From NCBI RefSeq assembly GCF_030733265.1, contig NZ_JASHJI010000005.1:1-64000 (forward strand): a stretch of DNA of 64,000 bases, given 5' to 3'. Positions within the stretch are counted from its first letter, which is position 1. Each line of letters opens with the position of its first letter. The position numbers and the translations under genes are program-made. Below are positions 25,007 to 35,148 of the stretch, in pieces. Origin of the DNA: Roseibium sp. MMSF_3412 (lineage in GTDB: Bacteria; Pseudomonadota; Alphaproteobacteria; Rhizobiales; Stappiaceae). The notes beneath the pieces are model-generated. The model saw only the letters and a program-made list of their open reading frames with translations, was not told where the DNA came from and did not search any database.

Positions 25007-26023
25007 TCAAGCACGGCAACTGCCGCGCGCATCCTCCAAGAGCCGCGATCGCGTTTCGGACGGCAGTTCGCAGAACTGCCTGTTGTAGTAACTGGTGAAT
25101 CTGCTCCAATCCCAAAAGCCTTCTTCCGCAGCGATATCTCCGATGCTTTCCTGTTCGAAAGTCTTGTCCAGCAGTTTCTGCCGGGCATTTTGCAGTCGTG
25201 CCAGCCGTGAGTAGGCCAGCGGCCCCATGTTCACCTGGTTGGAAAACGCCAGCTCGAAAAGCCTCTGGGACCCGAAATCCCTGATGGAAGATTTGAACCG
25301 CTTTCCCACATCCTCCCGCACACCAAGCAGCAGCCGGCGCGCCAGCAGGAAACGTTCGCGTGCCTTGGAAGGCTTGTGTGTGACATAGCTGTTCTGGCGC
25401 AACCATTCCAGATTGAACCCGATGACAAGGTCCAGAATGAAGGCCTGATCCACCGCTTCGCGTATGGCTTTCGCCCGGCCCGAAACCATGCTTTCCAGCA
25501 CCGCAAGGGCGCCGCTTCGGAACCTCTCGGCGAGCAGGAATGAACTCACCAGCACGGGCCGTTCGCGGACGCTGGAAAACCAGTCGGCGACTTCAGGCAG
25601 AATGGCCGGATGCGAAAGCAGGGCGTTCATTTCCACTTTTGCGACAACAGACAGACAGTCCGGAGGCAGAACCGTGTGATGTTCCGCCTTCGGCGGTCCC
25701 ACAAGGACCCAGTCGGTTGTCGTGGTGACGCCGCCGAAGGCAACGTCTTCAGTCAGTCCGCTAATAGCGGCGACAAATGTAAAGTCGCCGTCGGGAAGCA
25801 GCAACTCCACTTCCAGCGCCCGGTTGTAGTTCTCGACAAAAATCGACGCGGCACCCGTCTGCATCGCGAGCAGACGTCCCTTGAACCGGCCAGGGGTCAG
25901 CTGAATTGACTTGTGATTGTCGAGCAGGAGATCGAGCTGCGAATGACAGTCGTTCAGCTCAAGATAAGTGACACATTCATGTTGCCCGTCTCGTGCGGAA
26001 GACGGGAACCAGACGCTGTTCAA
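25007..26023 (-). CDS. AraC-family transcriptional regulator, paralogue 1
   Basis: 338 residues: an N-terminal sensor domain (about 1-220) of unknown ligand and a C-terminal AraC DNA-binding domain with two helix-turn-helices. The second one carries LQNARQKLLDK, IGDIAAEEGFWDWSRFTSYY. It is clearly homologous over its full length to the proteins at 26269 and 32688 (shared NQVNMGP.SYSR.ARL and EGFWDWSRFT). I set the start at TTG 26023: GGAG is 7 nt upstream, and the N-terminus (LNSVWFPSS) then aligns with paralogue 2. No inducer or target is evident. Confidence 0.88.
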   Translation of the reverse strand: MNSVWFPSSARDGQHECVTYLELNDCHSQLDLLLDNHKSIQLTPGRFKGRLLAMQTGAASIFVENYNRALEVELLLPDGDFTFVAAISGLTEDVAFGGVTTTTDWVLVGPPKAEHHTVLPPDCLSVVAKVEMNALLSHPAILPEVADWFSSVRERPVLVSSFLLAERFRSGALAVLESMVSGRAKAIREAVDQAFILDLVIGFNLEWLRQNSYVTHKPSKARERFLLARRLLLGVREDVGKRFKSSIRDFGSQRLFELAFSNQVNMGPLAYSRLARLQNARQKLLDKTFEQESIGDIAAEEGFWDWSRFTSYYNRQFCELPSETRSRLLEDARGSCRA

Positions 26024-26268
26024 CTGACCACTCCACGGGTTTGCGGGCCGGGAGCAGCTGCGTGCGAACGGCGGACTTTCGTTTCCGTGTCGGCTTGCTG
26101 CGGTGGGCAAGTCCCCTGTTTGACCTTAACGGTTTTCCGGTTGCTTTCCATTGGCTCGATCCAGCGCAAGCGAATTTGTGATGACATGGTTTTTGTTTCT
26201 TATCGATTGGCACACAGGCAAGGTCCCCTTTCAGGACCTGGGAGCTTTCTCTGTCGCTCGGACATGAG

Positions 26269-27270
26269 TCATGCGCCCCTGCCGTGACATTTCATGCGCG
26301 TTTCGGACGGAAGTTCGTTGAACTGTCTGCGGTAGTAAGACGTGAACCTGCTCCAGTCCCAGAAGCCTTCTTCGGCAGCAATATCGCCGATGCTTTCTTC
26401 ATCGAGGGTCTTGTCAAGCAGCTTCCGCCGCGCATTGTGCAGCCGCGCTATCCGCGAGTAGGACAGCGGCCCCATGTTCACCTGGTTGGAAAACGCCAGT
26501 TCGACAAGGCGCTGCGATCCGATCTTGCGCGAGGCCACCCTGAAGTGTTCGTTCACGTCTTCATGCGCCTCCAGCAGAAGTTTTCTGGCAAGCAGAAAAC
26601 GTTCACGCGCGCGCGAGGTCTTGTGCGTCGCGATCGTGCTCTGCCGCAACCACTCCATGTTGAATCCGTTCACCAATCCGCACACGAATGCCTTGTCCGC
26701 TGCAGCCCTGAAGGCCTGGGCTTGTATCGACAACAGGCTTTCGATCACCACCTGAACATCCGCACGAAAACGTTCCGCGAGCCAGGGTGACGTCACAAAC
26801 ACGGGACGCTTGGGTAGTTCGAGGAACCAGTCGGCAACCTCAGGCAGCAGGGCCGGATGGTTCAATAGCGAACCCTTTTTGAGCCGGGCGAGCAAAAGAA
26901 CGCTTTCAGAGGGCACAAGAGCAACATGTTCGGCACCCGGCGCCGCAACCTGCAACCAGTCCGTCGACTTCGTAACCCCCCCAAACGGGACATCCGGTTC
27001 GCCGCGGACAACAGCGGTTACGAAGGAGAAGGCATCCGGAGAGATCGAAACTTCTTTTTCAAGCGGCTGGTTGCTGTATTCGACATAAATCGAAACATCG
27101 CCAACATCCGCAACGAACAACCGTCCATTGAAGGACCCCGCACCCAGTTGCAGGCAACCGCTCCGGTTGCCGAAACGGGTCGACTGTGCATTGCAGTCGA
27201 AAAACTCTTCATCGAGAATGAAGTCGTTTTCGTTCGTCAATCCGGTCGCCGGAAACCAGTTTCCAAACAT
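26269..27270 (-). CDS. AraC-family transcriptional regulator, paralogue 2
   Basis: 333 residues with the same architecture as paralogue 1: N-terminal sensor domain with VSIYVEYSNQPLEKEV and a central PALLPEVADWFLEL segment, then an AraC DNA-binding domain with FSNQVNMGPLSYSRIARL and EEGFWDWSRFTSYY. Identity with paralogue 1 is highest in the DNA-binding part, so the two may read similar sites but sense different signals. ATG 27270 is preferred; a GTG four codons earlier is possible. It lies 245 bp upstream of paralogue 1 in the same direction, which suggests a tandem duplication. Confidence 0.88.
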   Translation of the reverse strand: MFGNWFPATGLTNENDFILDEEFFDCNAQSTRFGNRSGCLQLGAGSFNGRLFVADVGDVSIYVEYSNQPLEKEVSISPDAFSFVTAVVRGEPDVPFGGVTKSTDWLQVAAPGAEHVALVPSESVLLLARLKKGSLLNHPALLPEVADWFLELPKRPVFVTSPWLAERFRADVQVVIESLLSIQAQAFRAAADKAFVCGLVNGFNMEWLRQSTIATHKTSRARERFLLARKLLLEAHEDVNEHFRVASRKIGSQRLVELAFSNQVNMGPLSYSRIARLHNARRKLLDKTLDEESIGDIAAEEGFWDWSRFTSYYRRQFNELPSETRMKCHGRGA

Positions 27271-27826
27271 TGTTGTTCCCACGTTGATCGGTCGCTGGCG
27301 ACAAACGTGCGGAACGCTTTTTGCTGTCGATCTGGCCGGACCAAAACCGATCTGGCTGCATTCTCACACGACTTGCCGCGAAGGAAACGGTATCACCGCC
27401 CTCAAAAGCTCTATTTTTTTATAATTTGTTAACATCAGAATAAGGCGATATCCGCCTTGCGGTTATGCAGTTTGCGAAAAAATGACGCCCCGCCAGTTAA
27501 AAATATTTAAGAAAGAAATCTGAAGTTTAGTTTCTTCAATATGCAGCCTGAGAAACATGTCACGCGTCCGCTGCCCGGGTCATTCCGTAGAGCCGTCACA
27601 ACACAATTTAACACATCAAACCGCATCTGCCGGTCCGGTGGTTTCGTTTGCCGCGCACCGCCGTCGCCGAGACGTGAGCCGGTCGCTCTTCTACCCCCTC
27701 CAATTGCCAATCCGGAAACGGCGAGAAACCGTTGCTGCGCTAAAAGCATAACACTCCCGCAGGATTTCATGGTCCGATGGACGCTGAACGGATCCTCAGA
27801 TTCGCTTACTAGTTACGGAGATTGTT
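27271..27826. other. Intergenic region between AraC 2 and the LexA-like gene
   Basis: 556 bp with no supportable gene. It includes an AT-rich core (about 27405-27540, with long T and A tracts) that is likely the promoter zone for the divergent genes. The GC-rich part from 27545 to 27780 has short open frames only. Confidence 0.55.
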
Positions 27827-28072
27827 GTGACGGGTATTACTCCTAAGCAAAAGGAATGTCTTGAGTGCATCTCTCACTACATCAGCCAGAATGGCCATAG
27901 CCCATCACTGGCCGAAATCGGAGAGACTCTCTCGCAAAGTGCTGTAGCGATTCATCACAAGGTCAATTCCCTCGCAGAGCGGGGTTACTTGACGAAAAGC
28001 CGTGGCAAAAGAACGCTTGCGCTGACGAAGAAATCAAAACAATTGCTCGCACATCTTGCGCTGAACGACTGA
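27827..28072 (+). CDS. Stand-alone LexA-type winged-helix DNA-binding protein
   Basis: 81 residues, almost all of them the N-terminal DNA-binding domain of LexA: LTPKQ-like ITPKQKECLECISHYI, then SPSLAEIGETL, SQSAVAIHHKVNSLAERGYL. The Ser/Lys autoprotease domain that follows in LexA is absent, and the stop codon comes right after the wing, so cleavage control by RecA is impossible. It may act as a simple repressor or compete for operators. The GTG start has GGAG 6 nt upstream. It lies between the AraC pair and a small secreted protein gene, on the opposite strand from the AraC genes. Confidence 0.85.
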   Translation: MTGITPKQKECLECISHYISQNGHSPSLAEIGETLSQSAVAIHHKVNSLAERGYLTKSRGKRTLALTKKSKQLLAHLALND

Positions 28073-28171
28073 CGTGTGCCGGCGTGTCTCGCAACAGCGC
28101 GGCATCGCAGGCATCGCAACCTTGCCTCGGCCACGCTGACGTTCCCAACAAGGTTGAAGGGCCTTGCAACC

Positions 28172-28471
28172 ATGCCGCGGAATATCTTCTTTACATTGGC
28201 GTTAGTACTCGCCGTCCCCGCCGCTGCCGATCAGGACCCGAACAGACCGACTGACAAGATCGCAGCCGACCTGAATATCGAGGAAGCCGTTTTCATCGAA
28301 TGCTTCAAGCCGGTGAATCCGGAACCGGACAAATACCCTTCAGGCCAAGAACAACGCGCCAACAAGGCAATCCTTCTCCCGTGTCTTCAAAAAGCCAATC
28401 CGGCGATCAGCAATGAGCGTCTCGACAGGGTCATGGACAAGTACAGACCCGAAGGCGCGTTTCGGAAATAA
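28172..28471 (+). CDS. Small secreted protein of unknown function
   Basis: 99 residues. A signal peptide (LALVLAVPAAA) is followed by a short helical domain with two cysteines, in VFIECFKPVNP and LLPCLQKANP. The later residues NERLDRVMDKYRPEG are helical. I recall similar proteins in Roseobacter-type genomes but no function. The start at ATG 28172 directly precedes the signal peptide and has GAAGGG upstream at a somewhat long distance (11 nt). It lies 99 bp after the LexA-like gene on the same strand. Confidence 0.7.
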   Translation: MPRNIFFTLALVLAVPAAADQDPNRPTDKIAADLNIEEAVFIECFKPVNPEPDKYPSGQEQRANKAILLPCLQKANPAISNERLDRVMDKYRPEGAFRK

Positions 28472-28585
28472 TCCGGCCGCTCTGTGCCGCACCGATCCGA
28501 GCCGGAAAAATGCCGGTTGACTCCGCCATGCGAGGCGCGCGCCAGTCCAAGAGCCTGCCAAACGTGTTTCATTAGGGTACGGCCC

Positions 28586-28827
28586 CATAAATGAGACTGA
28601 AATGGCGTGTGAAATGGCGAAATCCCGTCAGGAAGCGTGTGTGGAGCGGGCTTCCTGCCCGGTCAAGCACGCTGACGCCACGGGATGACGCCATTTCCAT
28701 GTCCGTCGGATTTGACCGTCTTGCGCCTCCTCCGCGTCGCGCAAGGCCTGCAAATGAATCCCATTTCCTGCGTTTGCCCTCCTTGACGGGAAGCAAGCCG
28801 CCTCAAACCATTTCGCCCTCATTTATG
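28586..28827. mobile_element. MITE-like element with imperfect terminal inverted repeats
   Basis: The left end CATAAATGAG (28586-28595) is repeated inverted at the right end as CTCATTTATG (28818-28827). Past a 3-base mismatch the next 7 bases, GAAATGG against CCATTTC, also pair, giving about 17 of 20 matches. The 242-bp interior has no gene. No clear target-site duplication was seen, so transposition is not proven. The right end is 10 bp from the stop codon of the autotransporter gene, where it may also work as a terminator. The flanking 366-bp gap holds nothing else. Confidence 0.5.
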
Positions 28828-28837
28828 AGACCATCAC

Positions 28838-30688
28838 CTAGAGACGGATCGCGAAGCGTGCCATGCCCTGGAACGCGTCGATGACGCTTGAAAGCGTCCC
28901 CTGGCCGTCCAGAGTGAAGCTGGCCCGCGGCCCGAGGTCGAGATGCAGCGCTGCCCCCAGAAAGACGGCCGATAGGCCCGTTGTTCCGAGGCCGACGGAT
29001 TTGGGAATGCCGACAAGCGTGACCGGCACATCGTCGGCGCCGATGGAACCGCGCAAAAGGTAGCCCGCCCGGCCGGACAGCGTGGCCGGACCGAAATCCC
29101 TGGAGACCCCCAACTCGATATCTGCTTCCAGCACGCCAAGCGAATGAGCGCTCACCGTCGCGTTGGCCTTCGAACCGCCTTCCCTGTAGCCGCCGATATG
29201 CGTCAGGCCATAGCGTCCCCGCAAGGTTGGCGTAACAACAAGTCCCGTGCCGCCGATGGTCATATCGGCAGCAAGCGTTGCCTCAGACGTGAGGAACCAG
29301 CTGTCGTAGGATACCGAAGCACTGCTCTCACCACGCGTCAGGCCACCGCTCAGGGCTGTATTGTCGTTGATGAAACGGTGGCTGTCGTTCCGCTGCCAGC
29401 CGCCCGAAACGCCCAACCCGACAGTCACTGGCCCAAAGCGCCGATCGCCATGGAGTCCGGTAAAAACGCCGTGGCTGTCGATGTCCTGCGCATCCGCCCA
29501 TACGCTATCTGCCGTGATCGAGCCGCTGAGATAGCCCGCCATGACGCCAAGGCGCGTGTCGGCCGATTGTTCCCACGCATAGCCTATGGCAGCCCCTGCC
29601 TGGTCAATGCGTTGTTGCAGGGTTGTATCGTCACCGCCGTAGCTGGCGGCACTGCCAAATCCGGTGATCCAGAAGCGACCGGCTTGAAGCCCGTAGCGAT
29701 GCTCCGGCAACGGTTCTTCACCCAGCAGGGCTGTGAAGCCCGCCACAGCGCGCGCCCGTCCGTTCGTAAACGCCAGTGCAGCGGCCGGTCTTTTGCCAGG
29801 CCCTCGTGCTTGCGCGAGACCGGCCCGTCCAAGCTGCGCCAGTGTATTTGCCGTATCGGCAAACTGGTTGAAGCCCGCCGTCAAACCGGTCGGATCGAAG
29901 GTGGCAAATTGTCCCGTCGTGCTGTTGTAGAACCATGGAACGGAACCGGACAGATTGGCCTTGCCTCCGGCGATGTTGGCAGTGGGGACCTGCCAGAGCA
30001 CCGAGTGTGAGGCTCCCGTCACGATGTTGAGTGTTGTCGGAGCATCGAAAGTGATCGTCCCGCCCAGATATCCCGCGGAGCCAAGAGTGACGATGTTGTT
30101 TGTGGCATTGTTGCCAGTCTGGATCGCGTCGGCGCGTTCCGCAATTATTCGGCCAGTGTTGGTGGTCACGAAGTTGGCGGCATCGCTGGAAATCGCGGTG
30201 GCACCACTGCCCTGCGTCCAGATGGTTCCCCTGTTTGAGACAGTCGTATTGTTCCCGAAGTTCAAAACTCCGATCGCGTTCTCTTCAAGTGTCTTTATTG
30301 TGCCGGCGTTTACGATTGTCGCGTCGCCTCCGATATTTATAATTCCTATGGAGTCGAACCCATTTGTCCGGATCAGGCCGTTATTCAGGATGTTGAACTT
30401 ATTGCCGACGTTATAGACACCAAATGAAACGGCGCCGTCTGTCGCAATAGTCCCCAAATTGTTCACGGCGTTGCCGTAGTTGCCGCTTACGATCGCATCA
30501 TCAAGGATTGCCGTGGTGGTAACGCTGCCGACTTCCTCAATCAACAAATTCGTGTCGCCAAGCAGAAAACGGGTCGTCGTCACAGGCGAACTTATCACTT
30601 CATCGGCGCGAGTGAGCGAAGCTGGAGCAATGAACAGCATTCCAACGGCAACGGATGTCAGCCAGGGCTGACTTATATTTCTCGGCAT
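28838..30688 (-). CDS. Autotransporter (type Va) with beta-helical passenger
   Basis: 616 residues: signal peptide (about 1-28, ending LTRADE), a short passenger (to about 320) and a C-terminal autotransporter beta-barrel (about 330-616) ending in the outer-membrane signature FAIRL. The passenger contains five repeats of about 22 residues of the type N-x-G-x-I-x-T, for example NNLGTIATDG, NNGLIRTNGF, NAGTIKTLEE, NRGTIWTQGS and NTGRIIAERA, which should stack as a beta-helix. No protease triad is visible, so adhesion or biofilm formation is the likely role. ATG 30688 is preferred; it is preceded by a conserved leader shared with the locus at 32462. The HD-GYP gene lies upstream. Confidence 0.88.
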   Translation of the reverse strand: MPRNISQPWLTSVAVGMLFIAPASLTRADEVISSPVTTTRFLLGDTNLLIEEVGSVTTTAILDDAIVSGNYGNAVNNLGTIATDGAVSFGVYNVGNKFNILNNGLIRTNGFDSIGIINIGGDATIVNAGTIKTLEENAIGVLNFGNNTTVSNRGTIWTQGSGATAISSDAANFVTTNTGRIIAERADAIQTGNNATNNIVTLGSAGYLGGTITFDAPTTLNIVTGASHSVLWQVPTANIAGGKANLSGSVPWFYNSTTGQFATFDPTGLTAGFNQFADTANTLAQLGRAGLAQARGPGKRPAAALAFTNGRARAVAGFTALLGEEPLPEHRYGLQAGRFWITGFGSAASYGGDDTTLQQRIDQAGAAIGYAWEQSADTRLGVMAGYLSGSITADSVWADAQDIDSHGVFTGLHGDRRFGPVTVGLGVSGGWQRNDSHRFINDNTALSGGLTRGESSASVSYDSWFLTSEATLAADMTIGGTGLVVTPTLRGRYGLTHIGGYREGGSKANATVSAHSLGVLEADIELGVSRDFGPATLSGRAGYLLRGSIGADDVPVTLVGIPKSVGLGTTGLSAVFLGAALHLDLGPRASFTLDGQGTLSSVIDAFQGMARFAIRL

Positions 30689-30722
30689 TCCGGACGTCTC
30701 TTGAGTCGGACGTCCCCCACAC
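30689..30722 (-). promoter_or_regulatory. Conserved 5' leader element of the autotransporter gene
   Basis: Read on the minus strand, GTGTGGGGGACGTC (30709-30722) lies 20 nt before the ATG. GGACGTC then pairs with GACGTCC (30692-30698) to form a 7-bp hairpin with a 10-nt loop that ends 3 nt before the start codon. There is no ordinary ribosome binding site at normal distance. The same element with the same spacing stands before the ORF at 32462. A role in translation control is inferred. The remaining 288 bp up to 31010 holds no gene. Confidence 0.6.
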
Positions 30723-31010
30723 GTTTGATGCTTTGATTTTTGTTCGTTATGGTTAACAAAACATATACTTAGCGGTGTGCATGGGTGGCCCACCGCTCAT
30801 TGAAATAAGCAGATTTGACAATAAAAACGCGGACCCAAGTCGGTGACCGCACAAATTGCCGTTAGGTCGAAATGACACTTTTCAGGATGAAGACACGCTG
30901 CATCGGCAATACGGACGTGGCGCATATCCGCGTTCCGGAACACCGCCGCCGCTCCAGGTGCTTGGAAAGAAAGGTATTTTCTCTTTGGTCAGAACTTGCG
31001 GAGGAAACAA

Positions 31011-32189
31011 TCAGCACGGCTTGCCTGGATCCCGAAGAGCACCCGGGGCGCAGCTATGGCGATGGGTGGACGGCTGTTTGTCGTTCCCGGCGCCTACATG
31101 GCAATTTTTTTTGCGCCTGATCCGGCCATAACCGGTATCAAGCACCGACTTTTTGAAAACCTTGAACAGATTCGAATCCAGCTTCCCCGGCATCCTTGCC
31201 ATCTCCTGGATCGCCTGGCGTGGTGACATGGCGCTCTTGGTGCCCCTGATTTCCGTAAGTGTTGAATAGAGATCTGCAAGCGTAATCAGACGCACCAGAA
31301 ACGGGATTTGGTTCCCTTTCAATCCGTCGGGATAACCTGTCCCATCCATCATCTCGTGATGCCAGACCGCGACGTCGACCACGCTTTTCGGAACATGCGT
31401 GTTCGTTTTCAGGATCTCGCGCGTAAATTCCGGATGTCTCCTGATAAATGCGTCTTCTTTTTCCGTTGGCCGGCCGGGTTTGTCGAGAATGGACAATGGG
31501 ATCTTCACTTTCCCGAGGTCATGGACAAGGGCGCTGAGTGCCACAAGCATCTGCTGTTCCTTGGAGAGCCCGAGATCAATCGCGAAAGAAACCGCCTGTC
31601 CCGTCACCAGAAGAGTATGCCGGTAGCTGTGGCTGTGATGGCTTTGAGCCGCTTCGAGCCACGACCTGACACCCTCCTTGGCGATGGTTTCCGTGATGTT
31701 TTTCGCTGCATCGGTGAGTTTGGAAACCGGCAGGTCACGGCCCAGAATTGCGGACAGGGAAACAGTTGCGAGCGTCCTGCAGGCGCTGCCGACAGCCGAT
31801 CGAATGTCGTCGGGAAACTCTCGTGACAGATTAGGCTCATAATAGTCGCCGGCCACCGACCGCAAAGTGGCAAGAAGCGCCGACAGGCTTTCGCGACGGT
31901 CCACAAGCTTCTGACATCCGAATTCGTGTGCCTGGAACACTTGCTTGCGGTTACGCTGGTCCAGAACGCATATGGAAAGTCCGCAACCCAAGGCGAGCGC
32001 GGATTTCAGCGACCGAAGGTCGTCTTCTGTGAGGCCAAGGAAATCCACGACCAGCGTGGTTTCCGCTGAGGGCGGTGCCGTTTCCAGGCCCTTCACATCA
32101 AGAAAGTCTATCGGAAAGAGGGACGCAATTATGCTGTAGCGCCTGGCTGCCTTGACCCGATCGGCGGAAACGATTGCGATCCTGCGCAT
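31011..32189 (-). CDS. HD-GYP domain protein, probable cyclic-di-GMP phosphodiesterase
   Basis: 392 residues. The N-terminal part (1-115) looks like a degenerate receiver-type domain (MRRIAIVSAD, TTLVVDFLGL) without clear phosphoacceptor context. The HD-GYP domain (about 175-345) has metal ligands HTLLVTG, His223-Asp224 in LVHDLGKVKIP, HHEMMDGTGYPDGL (277-290) with the GYP motif at 285-287, and ADLYSTLTE. This fold hydrolyses cyclic-di-GMP to GMP. The last 35 residues are basic and unlike the family. It is preceded directly (TAG then ATG) by a 90-residue ORF with a conserved leader, and followed by the autotransporter, so local c-di-GMP control of adhesion is plausible. Confidence 0.9.
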   Translation of the reverse strand: MRRIAIVSADRVKAARRYSIIASLFPIDFLDVKGLETAPPSAETTLVVDFLGLTEDDLRSLKSALALGCGLSICVLDQRNRKQVFQAHEFGCQKLVDRRESLSALLATLRSVAGDYYEPNLSREFPDDIRSAVGSACRTLATVSLSAILGRDLPVSKLTDAAKNITETIAKEGVRSWLEAAQSHHSHSYRHTLLVTGQAVSFAIDLGLSKEQQMLVALSALVHDLGKVKIPLSILDKPGRPTEKEDAFIRRHPEFTREILKTNTHVPKSVVDVAVWHHEMMDGTGYPDGLKGNQIPFLVRLITLADLYSTLTEIRGTKSAMSPRQAIQEMARMPGKLDSNLFKVFKKSVLDTGYGRIRRKKNCHVGAGNDKQPSTHRHSCAPGALRDPGKPC

Positions 32190-32462
32190 CTATGCCACCA
32201 CCTCAAAGTGCGCCTGCCGTGCTGGCAGGAGAGACGGCTGCTCGCTATTTCCGCAAGCAGCGCACTCCAAATTTGATTTCTTTCGAAGAAGGCTAGTGCC
32301 CGCGTCGCAGAGAAAGCCGGCAAACGCACGGCAGTTTGCCGCGATCAATGCTGAAGGAGGTGCGAACTTGAAAAAGGTACACGGAGCATCGCCCAATCGA
32401 GCCGGAAGTAATCTGGATAACTTCAGGCTGTAGCGGCGATCCAAAAAGGTCTCTTCCGGCAT
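32190..32462 (-). CDS. Possible small basic protein leading into the HD-GYP gene
   Basis: A 90-residue open frame starting MPEETFLDRRYSLKLSRLLP. It has three cysteines and no recognisable domain or signal peptide. Support for it comes from context only: its stop codon abuts the HD-GYP start (TAGATG), and its ATG has the same conserved leader (20 nt spacing, hairpin) as the autotransporter gene. It could be a leader peptide whose translation controls the HD-GYP gene. It could also be non-coding, in which case the conserved element is simply a 5' UTR. Confidence 0.4.
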   Translation of the reverse strand: MPEETFLDRRYSLKLSRLLPARLGDAPCTFFKFAPPSALIAANCRAFAGFLCDAGTSLLRKKSNLECAACGNSEQPSLLPARQAHFEVVA

Positions 32463-32496
32463 ATCGGACGCCTCTCTACTCAGACGTCCCCCACAC
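32463..32496 (-). promoter_or_regulatory. Conserved 5' leader element, second copy
   Basis: On the minus strand GTGTGGGGGACGTC (32483-32496) lies 20 nt before an ATG, exactly as at 30709-30722. The hairpin is kept as GGACGT (32484-32489) pairing with GCGTCC (32466-32471) through one G-U pair, so pairing is preserved although the arm changed. The DNA just upstream (32500-32650) is very AT-rich and likely holds the promoter. Confidence 0.6.
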
Positions 32497-32687
32497 GTAG
32501 ATTGATCTTAAGACAGCATAGTTAAAAATTGAATAACAAAAGAACTATCAAAACAAAACAATCCAATAAAAAAATTGAAATGCTCAGATTTTTCTTTATT
32601 TTTATTTGCGTAGCAAGATGAGATAACTTGATAGAATGCAAAAATAGACGTGTTTACACTCGGCCATGACAAGACGCATGGCAAGTG

Positions 32688-33710
32688 TCAGCTTGTTCGC
32701 ATCGCTTTTCGCCGCGTCGCAGACGGCAATTCGCCAAAATGCTTGCTGTAGTAGGCCGTGAACCTGCTCCAGTCCCAGAAACCTTCCTGCGCGGCGATGT
32801 TTCCGATCGACTCACTGAAGAAGCGTTTTTCTCGCAGCTTCCGTCGCGCATTGTGCAGCCTGACAATGCGCGCATAGGACCGCGGCCCCATTTTGACGTG
32901 CTCGGAAAAGGCCTGTTCAACCGAACGCTTCGAACCAAGCTTCGACAAAGCGTCATTGCTGTCGCCTCCCTGGTAGAGATCGCGCTCAGCCAGCAGGTGC
33001 CTTGCTTTGAGAAAGCGATCCAGGGCGGGGGATCGGTGGATAACGTTATAGTCTCCACGCTCGAGCCATTCGAGGGAAAACCCAGCCGCGATGCTTGAAA
33101 TCAGCGCCTGATGAATAATGTGAGCGGTTTTGGTTTCGTTGGCCGGAAGAATTCCCTTCGCGCTTTGAAGTGTCATCAGCGCGTCGTCCTGTATCCGGCT
33201 TGCCAACCGCCGCGACCTGACAAACTCGCCGTCCCGCTTCAGAGATCTGAACCAGCTTCCAACATCGGGAACCAGATTTTCGCTGTTGAGCAGCGCCTCG
33301 CACTCCACCGTCATCATAAGCAAAGGGCATTGGGTTGGTGTCGGCGCAACGGCTTGGCCGCCGGGTGGCAACACATAGACCCACGTACCCGCACCCTGAA
33401 CGCCGAAAACCGCATCTTTGCAGCTTTCACAAAGACATGTGCAGAAAAGAAACTTGTCCTGATCCACCTTCATGCATTGCTCGATGGCCTGCTCGCTCTG
33501 CGTGACATGTATTGAAATCCGGTCCACCAGGGCAAAAACGACACTTCCCTCAAAGGCCCCGGGACTGAGTTGAATGCTCTCAAGTTTGATTCCCTTGAAC
33601 AGACTTGCGTGATGTTCGAGATCGTTGCTGTCGCACTTGTACAAGACTGAAGAATCGACATTCAATTCTTCGAAATTCGAAAGTTTATTGAATCCAACCA
33701 ATTCATTCAT
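32688..33710 (-). CDS. AraC-family transcriptional regulator, paralogue 3
   Basis: 340 residues, full-length homologue of the proteins at 25007 and 26269 but more distant. The N-terminal sensor domain has five cysteines (LFCTCLCESCKD and YKCDSN) that the other two lack, hinting at a redox or metal signal. The DNA-binding domain keeps EHVKMGPRSYARIVRLHNAR and QEGFWDWSRFTAYY. ATG 33710 was chosen because it gives the same N-terminal length as the paralogues; the 105 residues upstream in the frame are Arg-rich and not protein-like. It lies upstream of the HD-GYP locus on the same strand. Confidence 0.86.
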   Translation of the reverse strand: MNELVGFNKLSNFEELNVDSSVLYKCDSNDLEHHASLFKGIKLESIQLSPGAFEGSVVFALVDRISIHVTQSEQAIEQCMKVDQDKFLFCTCLCESCKDAVFGVQGAGTWVYVLPPGGQAVAPTPTQCPLLMMTVECEALLNSENLVPDVGSWFRSLKRDGEFVRSRRLASRIQDDALMTLQSAKGILPANETKTAHIIHQALISSIAAGFSLEWLERGDYNVIHRSPALDRFLKARHLLAERDLYQGGDSNDALSKLGSKRSVEQAFSEHVKMGPRSYARIVRLHNARRKLREKRFFSESIGNIAAQEGFWDWSRFTAYYSKHFGELPSATRRKAMRTS

Positions 33711-35148
33711 CGAACTACTCTCGGAACGACGTTCTTCACTCCATGAGAATCTCTTCAGATTTCCGGCCGCCACGACGTCACGCTTGACCGGACGTCTTCC
33801 GATGCCGCTCCTTCTTCGGGTCCTTTTCGGCAGAGCCGAAAGCCTCCGTGCGGGCCGGCGGCGGGCCACAGCCCAGCGCTCGGCGGAATTCGCGTGCCAG
33901 CACCCCTGGTGCGCCAGGTGCCCTTGTGTGGCGCATCCGATCGATCGCCCGCGAGCCGGAACTGCGATGGCGACCGCCCATCCGGGCAACGCAGGACCTA
34001 GACAGGTGTGGGGGACCTTTCTCATGAGTGCCTGCGCATTGACCGGATGGGCGGCGACATCCGACTTGACGAATCCCGCACGCCCCCCTTACGAGAAGGT
34101 TGCAACGGTAATGCAACGCCATGCCGAACCCCGAAGCGGCACGCGAACGAGCACACTCGCTCCGCCCGACCCTCGCCGATGCGTGAGGGCGGAACCCGCT
34201 TCTGAACTGAACTTGATTGCCGTAACGCGAGAACTTGCCCGGAAACTCAGCGCTGGTGATGGAACCGGATTTTACGCGGAAACCGTGACGATGACTGACC
34301 CGTCGGATCGAACGTTCGATCCACGCAATCATGCACGACACAGAGTTCCTTTCCGCTGCAAACACAACCACCCCCGATTCGACAATCGATACCCTATCGA
34401 TACGAAATGAGGGCGCGGGTACGTTATGCAGAACTCGCACGTACTTCAGACATAACTTTTTTTGATTTTGATTTATATATCAAATAGAAGATTTAAATTA
34501 TAAGCATATAGCGCAATTCAAATTCTCATCGAGCAAAACAAAAGTTCAAAATCGGCAAATCATTGCATGTTTAGCAATGAAGTAACAAAACTTTAACGCC
34601 TTAAACTTATTTTAAACGCGCCGCGATCGCGTTTTAAGTAGAATTTCTTATATATCAAAGTCTTCATTCAATCCTGGAGAATCCGCGCCTCGTCGACCGA
34701 TTGCGGTTCAGCTCTGCACCAATCTCAATCTGAAGCAGAATTCGCAACGGTGCCGCATGCTCCAGTCCCGGGCGCAGCGCCACCCGTCATTACGGTTTGT
34801 TTCATATCTTCTTAAGCGGTCAGCAACAACTTGGCTTTCGCACTGGTGCGCGATGAATATCTCCCGGATCTGCCGCCCGCAGGCGACGACGCGGCACCGA
34901 GCACCCGTCATCCGTCAATAAGGAATCCTTGAAAACCGGGCACGGATTGCGCCTCCCTGCAGCGCAGCAACCGAAAGGCGAAGCAGGCAAAGCAGCCCTC
35001 GCAGGTGCCCCGCCGCAGGGTCAAAAAGGCGCTCGCAATCGCAAACACGGCCCTATCAGGGAAAAAGTGTGGCCGGGACAGTTGCCAAATGTCAAAAAAG
35101 GAACAAATAATGGTACCAATTGAAATTGGTTCCACAAGAAGACGCTGC
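33711..35148. other. Long gene-poor region of mosaic composition
   Basis: 1.4 kb with no supportable gene. From 33740 to 34430 it is GC-rich; overlapping open frames of 128 to 261 residues run on both strands, but none has a recognisable domain. From 34440 to 34680 it is very AT-rich and has two copies of TTATATATCAAA (34473-34484 and 34648-34659). The rest to 35148 leads to the GntR gene. The part 33740-34430 could be the remains of a decayed gene. An ATG at 34024 with a GGGGGAC sequence 8 nt upstream opens a 128-residue frame of doubtful reality. Confidence 0.5.
35111..35134. promoter_or_regulatory. Operator-like palindrome at the GntR gene start
   Basis: TGGTACCAAT (35111-35120), spacer TGAA, ATTGGTTCCA (35125-35134): 9 of 10 positions are symmetric. 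The TGGT..ACCA type is common for FadR-subfamily GntR operators. Its place in the leader suggests autoregulation and control of the transporter operon that follows. Confidence 0.65.

Follow-up and report, generated by a model that had tools for sequence, protein, structure and literature searches.

In a synthetic toehold switch, a single-stranded 5′ tail precedes a hairpin that holds the ribosome-binding region, the start codon lies near the stem, and a trans-acting RNA invades the structure from the tail. The closest natural systems described are small RNAs with C-rich loops. In the portions of the published accounts compared here, GsrN, the general-stress small RNA of Caulobacter, base-pairs with the katG leader and raises its translation, a C-rich loop that is better conserved than any other part of the molecule contacting a G-rich stretch at the leader's 5′ end (PMC5869019). 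DsrA and RyhB are named as activators that uncover a ribosome-binding site (PMC5869019). The sX13 RNA of Xanthomonas, with stable stems and apical C-rich loops, is described in the corresponding portion of its account as repressing mRNAs with G-rich motifs near the start, and the genes that it affects include ones for signal transduction and motility (PMC3771888).

How does the locus described here compare? The window, by which we mean the whole 64,000-nucleotide stretch of Roseibium sp. MMSF_3412 DNA analysed, carries a candidate RNA with two features of the functional class of C-rich-loop small RNAs, namely an exposed, conserved C-rich loop and a complementary G-rich motif near several target starts. 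If our reading of the pairing is right, this RNA works like GsrN and sX13, though it has no Rfam match. As with GsrN, an alphaproteobacterial candidate RNA would present an invariant C-rich loop to a G-rich target site; unlike with GsrN, for which the portion of the account compared mentions no leader hairpin common to targets and states that katG lacks a clearly predicted ribosome-binding site (PMC5869019), the leaders here are stereotyped, most copies of the RNA lie beside AraC-type genes, and the loop sits atop a long stem. A GsrN homologue would be expected to have a general-stress (EcfG-type) promoter and, as a rule, a place close to the general-stress locus; both copies of the present RNA in the window's genome lie beside AraC-type genes. 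Neither the position nor the flanks of the 4G motif are conserved among sX13 targets in the portion considered (PMC3771888), whereas here the leaders have a fixed 11-nt site and hairpin at a fixed spacing from the start; such a fixed leader module is without parallel in the portions of the GsrN and sX13 accounts compared. The proposed logic, in which a trans-acting RNA would open an inhibitory leader structure, is that of DsrA and RyhB, but with a minimal module repeated before many genes. With the toehold switch the leaders share, as predicted, the 5′ tail, the hairpin with the ribosome-binding region and the start codon near the stem, but they are natural, their stem is short (7 bp) with the start codon just outside it, and many targets go with one candidate partner.

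Two copies of a leader element in the window

The initial annotation had described, at two places on the minus strand, a motif 20 nt before an ATG, followed by a hairpin that ends 3 nt before the start and in whose second copy one changed arm base pairs as G-U. Both copies are present where it placed them: the 14-mer GTGTGGGGGACGTC lies at 30709-30722 and 32483-32496 (minus strand), its 3′ end 20 nt from the ATG in both (Table 1). The hairpins were recovered as well, as 7-bp stems ending 3 nt before the ATG, GGACGTC/GACGTCC in copy 1 and GGACGTC/GGCGTCC, with one U-G wobble, in copy 2. As to the genes said to follow, an autotransporter and an HD-GYP gene, the first ATG is indeed that of the autotransporter, but the second belongs to a 90-codon ORF (32190-32462), whose stop adjoins the HD-GYP ATG at 32189. 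Within the window, the motif is not in excess when up to three mismatches are allowed (9 matches vs 7.33 expected).

Table 1. Coordinates of the leader copies, the candidate RNA and the neighbouring genes in the window.
Feature	Position	Strand	Remarks
Autotransporter gene	28838..30688	minus	616 aa; PF03797 beta-domain; behind leader copy 1
Leader copy 1	30686..30722	minus	5′ tail GTGTGGG 30716-30722; stem arms 30709-30715 and 30692-30698; start codon 30686-30688 (autotransporter)
HD-GYP type gene (HD_5)	31011..32189	minus	likely c-di-GMP phosphodiesterase; behind the 90-codon ORF
90-codon upstream ORF	32190..32462	minus	opened by leader copy 2; stop adjoins next ATG; no Pfam match
Leader copy 2	32460..32496	minus	5′ tail GTGTGGG 32490-32496; stem arms 32483-32489 and 32466-32472 (one U-G); start codon 32460-32462 (90-codon upstream ORF)
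AraC-type regulator gene (HTH_18)	32688..33710	minus	downstream of the structured RNA
Structured RNA element, candidate small RNA	33971..34057	minus	about 87 nt; 13-bp basal stem, second stem, apical hairpin AGGT-CCCCCAC-ACCT
GTCCCCCACAC in the RNA apical hairpin	34006-34016	minus	complementary to both window leaders

The leader family across related genomes

A family set of 87 genomes, comprising the genome of the window (G000), its congeners G070 and G064 and 84 others, was searched with the leader pattern GTGTGGGGGAC+N{4,24}+GTCC, its reversal as control, and two models, R1 for the structured RNA element and R2 for the leader. The exact 14-mer occurs seven times in the G000 genome, in all seven cases followed by a second hairpin arm and then a start codon; among the matches listed, the other 34 all have two mismatches and none has one. 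The leader pattern was found 8 times in G000, 9 times in G070 and twice in G064, and its reversal in none of them; the remaining 84 genomes hold 5 matches in total, as against 19 of the reversed control. Together with a weak G000 leader at C3:174389 (R2, E 0.002), which keeps GTGTGGGGG only and not the full 11-nt site, this gives the 20 leaders treated below (8 and 1 weak in G000, 9 in G070, 2 in G064).

Each of these 20 leaders has 1-4 nt between the end of the stem and the start codon, the motif beginning 27-36 nt upstream of that codon, and GTGTGGGGGAC is invariant in all but the weak one (19/20). Since agreement among the eight G000 leaders is at background level in the 60 nt upstream (0.30) and, on the coding side, scarcely reaches past the start codon (0.50 over the initial 9 nt and 0.30-0.36 after them), the shared unit is a stretch of 25-32 nt from motif to stem end. 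Compensated arms are seen in the sulfatase-type leader of G064 (GGACATC/GGTGTCC) and in the orthologous carbonic anhydrase leaders of G000 and G070 (GGACATT/GGTGTCC), GTGTGGGGGAC being unchanged in each. The consensus fold is a hairpin with an invariant tail and conserved arms, and a toehold-like layout, with a 5′ tail and a hairpin holding the ribosome-binding region before the start codon, is predicted for all 20. A CsrA/RsmA site presents GGA in a hairpin loop; in the predicted consensus fold of the leaders the GGA is part of the 5′ stem arm instead, and this assignment was rejected.

At E <=0.05, R2 matches in 13 of the 87 genomes, whereas matches at E <1e-8 are restricted to G000, G070 and G064. 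Outside these three the best match, in G055 (E 2.7e-5), keeps GTGTGGGGG and a stem. We did not count the matches at E <=0.05 in G055, G082, G010, G054, G016, G066, G021, G073, G084 and G007: among those inspected, G055, G082 and G010 lack the 11-mer and G054 has it with no GTCC arm in range, and R1 matches in none of the ten. For G000, G064 and G070 themselves, the R2 matches of lowest significance (E 0.2 to 3) were likewise excluded; two of these are the reverse side of RNA copies. A leader-pattern scan of a large genome collection, which may omit records close to the window's own genome, returned 10 stretches and one plausible carrier, Roseibium sp. MMSF_3544; the other nine, non-alphaproteobacterial, were folded and put down to chance.

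The initial annotation had proposed a shared cis-acting leader linking an adhesin with a c-di-GMP gene and had made further copies in related genomes its test. Such copies exist in G070 and G064, and the proposal is supported at many more loci than the two seen originally. The expected spread over Hyphomicrobiales did not materialise: strong leader matches come from 3 of the 87 family genomes, R1 matches from the same three, and the collection scan added one plausible carrier.

Target genes and upstream reading frames

Which genes stand behind the leaders? Autotransporters with PF03797 are represented by the window gene and four G070 copies, and two further G000 copies, cut by contig ends, were recognised by their 82-85% identity to those of G070. 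The contig ends in question (right end of C1, left end of C5; L039, L038) break inside the autotransporter genes at the same protein stretch, perhaps because of repeated paralogous autotransporter parts. Other G000 targets encode HD-GYP, PAS-GGDEF-EAL and HAMP-MCP chemoreceptor proteins, with counterparts in G070; a delta carbonic anhydrase is a target in G000 and G070 and a sulfatase-type membrane protein in G064, and a zinc-type dehydrogenase lies further downstream of the weak G000 leader. In G064 one leader is followed by a chemoreceptor fragment of 283 aa (L037:6232-7083) that has no Pfam match and is 43% identical to the G000 protein over 249 aa. Only the N-terminal sensory part is kept in this fragment, the signalling domain being absent, and the second RNA copy lies about 560 nt downstream of it. 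Behind the leader at C22:215752 of G000 and its G070 counterpart (L032:3400-3753 and L033:2630-3025, both minus) stands only a poorly conserved ORF of 107-130 codons, with no gene recognisable downstream on that strand and no conserved target apparent.

For the HD-GYP, GGDEF-EAL and chemoreceptor genes, the start codon behind the leader opens a short upstream ORF and not the main gene. From the stop of this ORF to the HD-GYP start, the distance is 0 nt in G000 and -4 in G070; for GGDEF-EAL it is -1 in G000, with the same kind of overlap in G070 judging from the junction sequence. The G064 chemoreceptor fragment overlaps its upstream ORF by 14 nt, and in the chemoreceptor genes of G000 and G070 upstream and main ORFs do not overlap. 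Translational coupling of the HD-GYP gene to its upstream ORF is likely. Over 361 residues the HD-GYP protein of G000 matches that of G070 at 84% identity; between the two proteins encoded by the upstream ORFs no likeness was detectable (E 0.12), which suggests that translation of these ORFs matters rather than the peptide.

A second small hairpin, of the type GTCAGC-N4-GCTGAC, lies about 15-40 nt into the coding sequence of several targets, mainly autotransporters (L036:3693-3790, L039:4793-4890, L035:3437-3530; window 30640-30690, minus). By eye, its stem bases are kept where the residues encoded by the loop change.

A structured RNA complementary to the leaders

A search of the leader loci for the complement of the motif led to a structured RNA element, whose window copy lies 1.5 kb upstream of leader copy 2. 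Two copies each are present in G000 (the second at C22:221027-221113), G070 and G064; five of the six lie upstream of an AraC-type gene, and the sixth, in G064, is upstream of the chemoreceptor-like leader and not directly of an AraC gene. AGGTCCCCCACACCTG is invariant in all six, as is the loop CCCCCAC, with a computed unpaired probability of 0.79-1.0. When five copies were folded, z ranged from -2.4 to -5.0, and shuffles folding as well numbered 0/200 in four copies and 1/200 in the fifth. The consensus comprises 29 pairs, 8 of them changed on both sides; its covariation score was reached by 0/500 shuffles and the number of doubly changed pairs by 2/500, figures that are biased towards the structure, since it was derived from the same six sequences as were tested. 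Further pair types are no more frequent than in shuffles (246/500 reach the number), and shifting the pair partners by 1-3 columns abolishes the covariation signal. Among wobble cells in the stems, 16 are G-U and 4 A-C, which points to the CCCCCAC strand as the RNA strand; in energy, the opposite strand folds about equally, and slightly better in three of the six copies.

Between G000 and G070, identity in 40-column bins over the RNA amounts to 90, 90 and 75% for the window copy and 97, 97 and 78% for the second copy; other bins give 35-68% in the gap between RNA and AraC gene, 57-93% just upstream of the RNA and 65-95% within the window AraC coding sequence. At the RNA element no promoter or terminator stands out, and an alignment of the regions upstream of the six copies yielded no clear promoter.

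Rfam (4227 models), searched with all six RNA copies and 11 of the 20 leaders, gave no match at these sites (window 28000-35000 to E 5; L032, L033, L034 and L037 to E 1). Within the 87 family genomes R1 matches only in G000, G064 and G070, the three with strong leaders. Searches of 397 genomes of the order, with matches besides the own genome in one only (G209), and of a class sample of 385, with matches in the own genome only, used stricter filters and samples, and absence there is no proof. The G209 matches proved to be REP-like palindromes with another loop and were not counted; this genome, from another family of the order, has long, near-perfect, REP-like palindromes of the GATCCCGGC type at four places (L133-L136). 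A plasmid search with the window RNA gave no match. The 14-mer GTGTGGGGGACGTC was not found in the literature searched, nor was such an RNA in that on small and non-coding RNA of Labrenzia, Roseibium, Stappia and Roseibium aggregatum.

Members of the AraC-type family (E 1e-25) number 7 in G000, 9 in G070, 4 in G064 and 1 each in G033 and G049, with none in the other 82 of the 87 family genomes, and some of these relatives lack the RNA. Two more AraC-type paralogues lie downstream of the autotransporter (window 25007-27282, minus), and a small protein with a LexA-type DNA-binding domain is encoded at 27827-28072 (plus strand), similar ones occurring near the systems in G070 (L034:2999-3244) and G064 (L037:10121-10378).

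Predicted pairing of the RNA with the leaders

Base for base, GTCCCCCACAC in the RNA is complementary to GTGTGGGGGAC in the leaders. The G000 genome as a whole contains the 11-mer 10 times, in 8 leaders and 2 RNA loops; in G070 there are 11 occurrences (9 leaders, 2 RNA loops) and in G064 there are 5 (2 leaders, 2 RNA loops, 1 other). The reversed 11-mer gives 0, 0 and 2 in the three carriers, and 17 chosen congeners hold 14 copies of the 11-mer in total, on average about 0.8 each. Near the start, the G-rich motif complementary to the RNA is exact over 11 nt in 19 of 20 leaders.

The computed 11-bp duplex amounts to -24.7 to -31.9 kcal/mol in 19 leaders, the weak one reaching -20.9. Folding energies for the initial 45 nt of each leader are -12.1 to -17.0 kcal/mol, with -0.5 to -8.1 left when the site is held open, and opening the pairing site of the RNA, its loop being exposed, costs 2.4-4.7 kcal/mol. 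On paper, pairing with invasion of the hairpin is therefore favourable. In most leaders the paired stretch would span about -34 to -24, and the purine-rich stretch best matching what we take to be the 16S tail lies 6-10 nt before the start, in the hairpin loop and 3′ arm. Computed over the 20 leaders, the exposure of this Shine-Dalgarno-like stretch did not rise on pairing (mean 0.57 free, 0.50 bound); that of the region -18..+3 was 0.48 free and 0.52 bound, and start-codon exposure went up in 9 leaders and down in 11, the largest rises being those of the two window leaders (0.37 to 0.94 and 0.33 to 0.88). Loop and target do not vary together in the three genomes, two of which are close, and there is accordingly no loop-target covariation to confirm the pairing.

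Discussion

What could this RNA do for Roseibium? The element family, the exact complementarity, the covarying RNA fold and the co-occurrence of RNA and leaders can be read from the sequence itself, and at this level pairing is strongly implied; that the RNA is made, and pairs in the cell, we infer. We consider it likely that the leaders are one family of near-identical modules targeted by one structured regulatory RNA, and this small RNA probably controls adhesin, c-di-GMP and chemoreceptor genes together.

In the mechanism that we propose, pairing would begin between the 5′ tail GUGUGGG of a leader and the loop CCCCCAC, 7 nt displayed by the RNA at the top of a long stem, and the duplex would then extend to 11 bp (GUGUGGGGGAC/GUCCCCCACAC), taking part of the 5′ arm of the leader hairpin. 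Because the purine-rich region is in the loop and 3′ arm, with the start codon 1-4 nt behind, pairing would alter translation initiation, directly for the autotransporters and via the short upstream ORFs for the HD-GYP, GGDEF-EAL and chemoreceptor genes. With the ribosome-binding region in the hairpin loop and 3′ arm, the layout suggests activation by opening. Given pairing, we would thus modestly favour activation of translation and call it likely, by analogy and from the layout, the accessibility calculation not being in support; repression by the same pairing appears doubtful.

A repressive reading would keep the RNA-RNA pairing, and with it all the evidence for pairing, and let the duplex sequester the leader, so that ribosomes could not load or the G-rich tail could not serve as a standby site or enhancer. 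The precedent is the C-rich-loop RNA sX13, which in the portion of the account considered represses mRNAs with G-rich motifs near the start, the motif of one target lying 21 nt upstream of the AUG (PMC3771888), and the calculation, with no gain in accessibility on pairing, agrees with it. Against it, the start region is predicted to be covered by the leader hairpin even before any RNA pairs. Moreover, the stretch paired in most leaders, at about -34 to -24, lies upstream of the point at which the usual ribosome footprint begins. Overall, we regard repression as unlikely.

Could the 11 bp of GTGTGGGGGAC instead be the DNA operator of an AraC-type regulator, present at target start regions and, inverted, in the regulator's own upstream region for autoregulation, with the hairpins incidental? 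Five of the six RNA copies do lie upstream of AraC-type genes, and leaders and RNA loops are the same 11 bp when taken as double-stranded DNA. However, an operator leaves unexplained the compensated leader stems, the fixed distance of 1-4 nt from stem to start, the covarying long stem with the motif in its apical loop and the strand bias of the wobbles, and one G064 copy of the RNA precedes the chemoreceptor-like leader and not directly an AraC gene. We therefore hold an operator to be improbable.

Compared with the partner suggested in the initial annotation, an RNA-binding protein or a ligand, an RNA is the likelier one: the invariant 11 nt find their perfect complement in the apical hairpin of a covarying RNA, encoded 1.5 kb upstream of copy 2 and at a second locus. 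A leader serving as a site for such a protein or small ligand, the complementary RNA being a decoy or unrelated, would suit a hairpin with an invariant tail and conserved arms. Yet a decoy would have the same RNA sequence as the leader and not its complement, all non-leader 11-mers in G000 and G070 are the complement within the RNA apical hairpin, and the 11 of 20 leaders searched have no Rfam match, which leaves this alternative very improbable. Spread of a repeated DNA element by duplication or transposition, without a regulatory role, could account for near-identical copies within one lineage, but is hardly credible given that nothing is shared outside the 25-32 nt unit from motif to stem end (upstream identity 0.30), that placement before start codons is strict, that changes preserve the stem and that a partner RNA exists.

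Returning to one RNA that pairs with a family of leaders and activates them, we can tentatively picture a natural toehold-switch regulon. A single RNA, encoded twice and mostly beside AraC-type regulators, would switch on a programme of surface attachment and c-di-GMP signalling by invading the same minimal hairpin before each gene, and the short, freely evolving upstream ORFs would act as translational couplers.

Small RNAs usually meet their targets via varied sites that are hard to predict. Here, with an identical 11-nt site in 19 of 20 leaders, a compensated hairpin, a fixed distance to the start and an invariant loop in the RNA, the target list can be read from the genome. If the pairing is confirmed, the system would be a compact, naturally evolved equivalent of the engineered toehold switch, and in marine Roseibium it would join adhesins to a chemoreceptor and to c-di-GMP enzymes within one post-transcriptional regulon.
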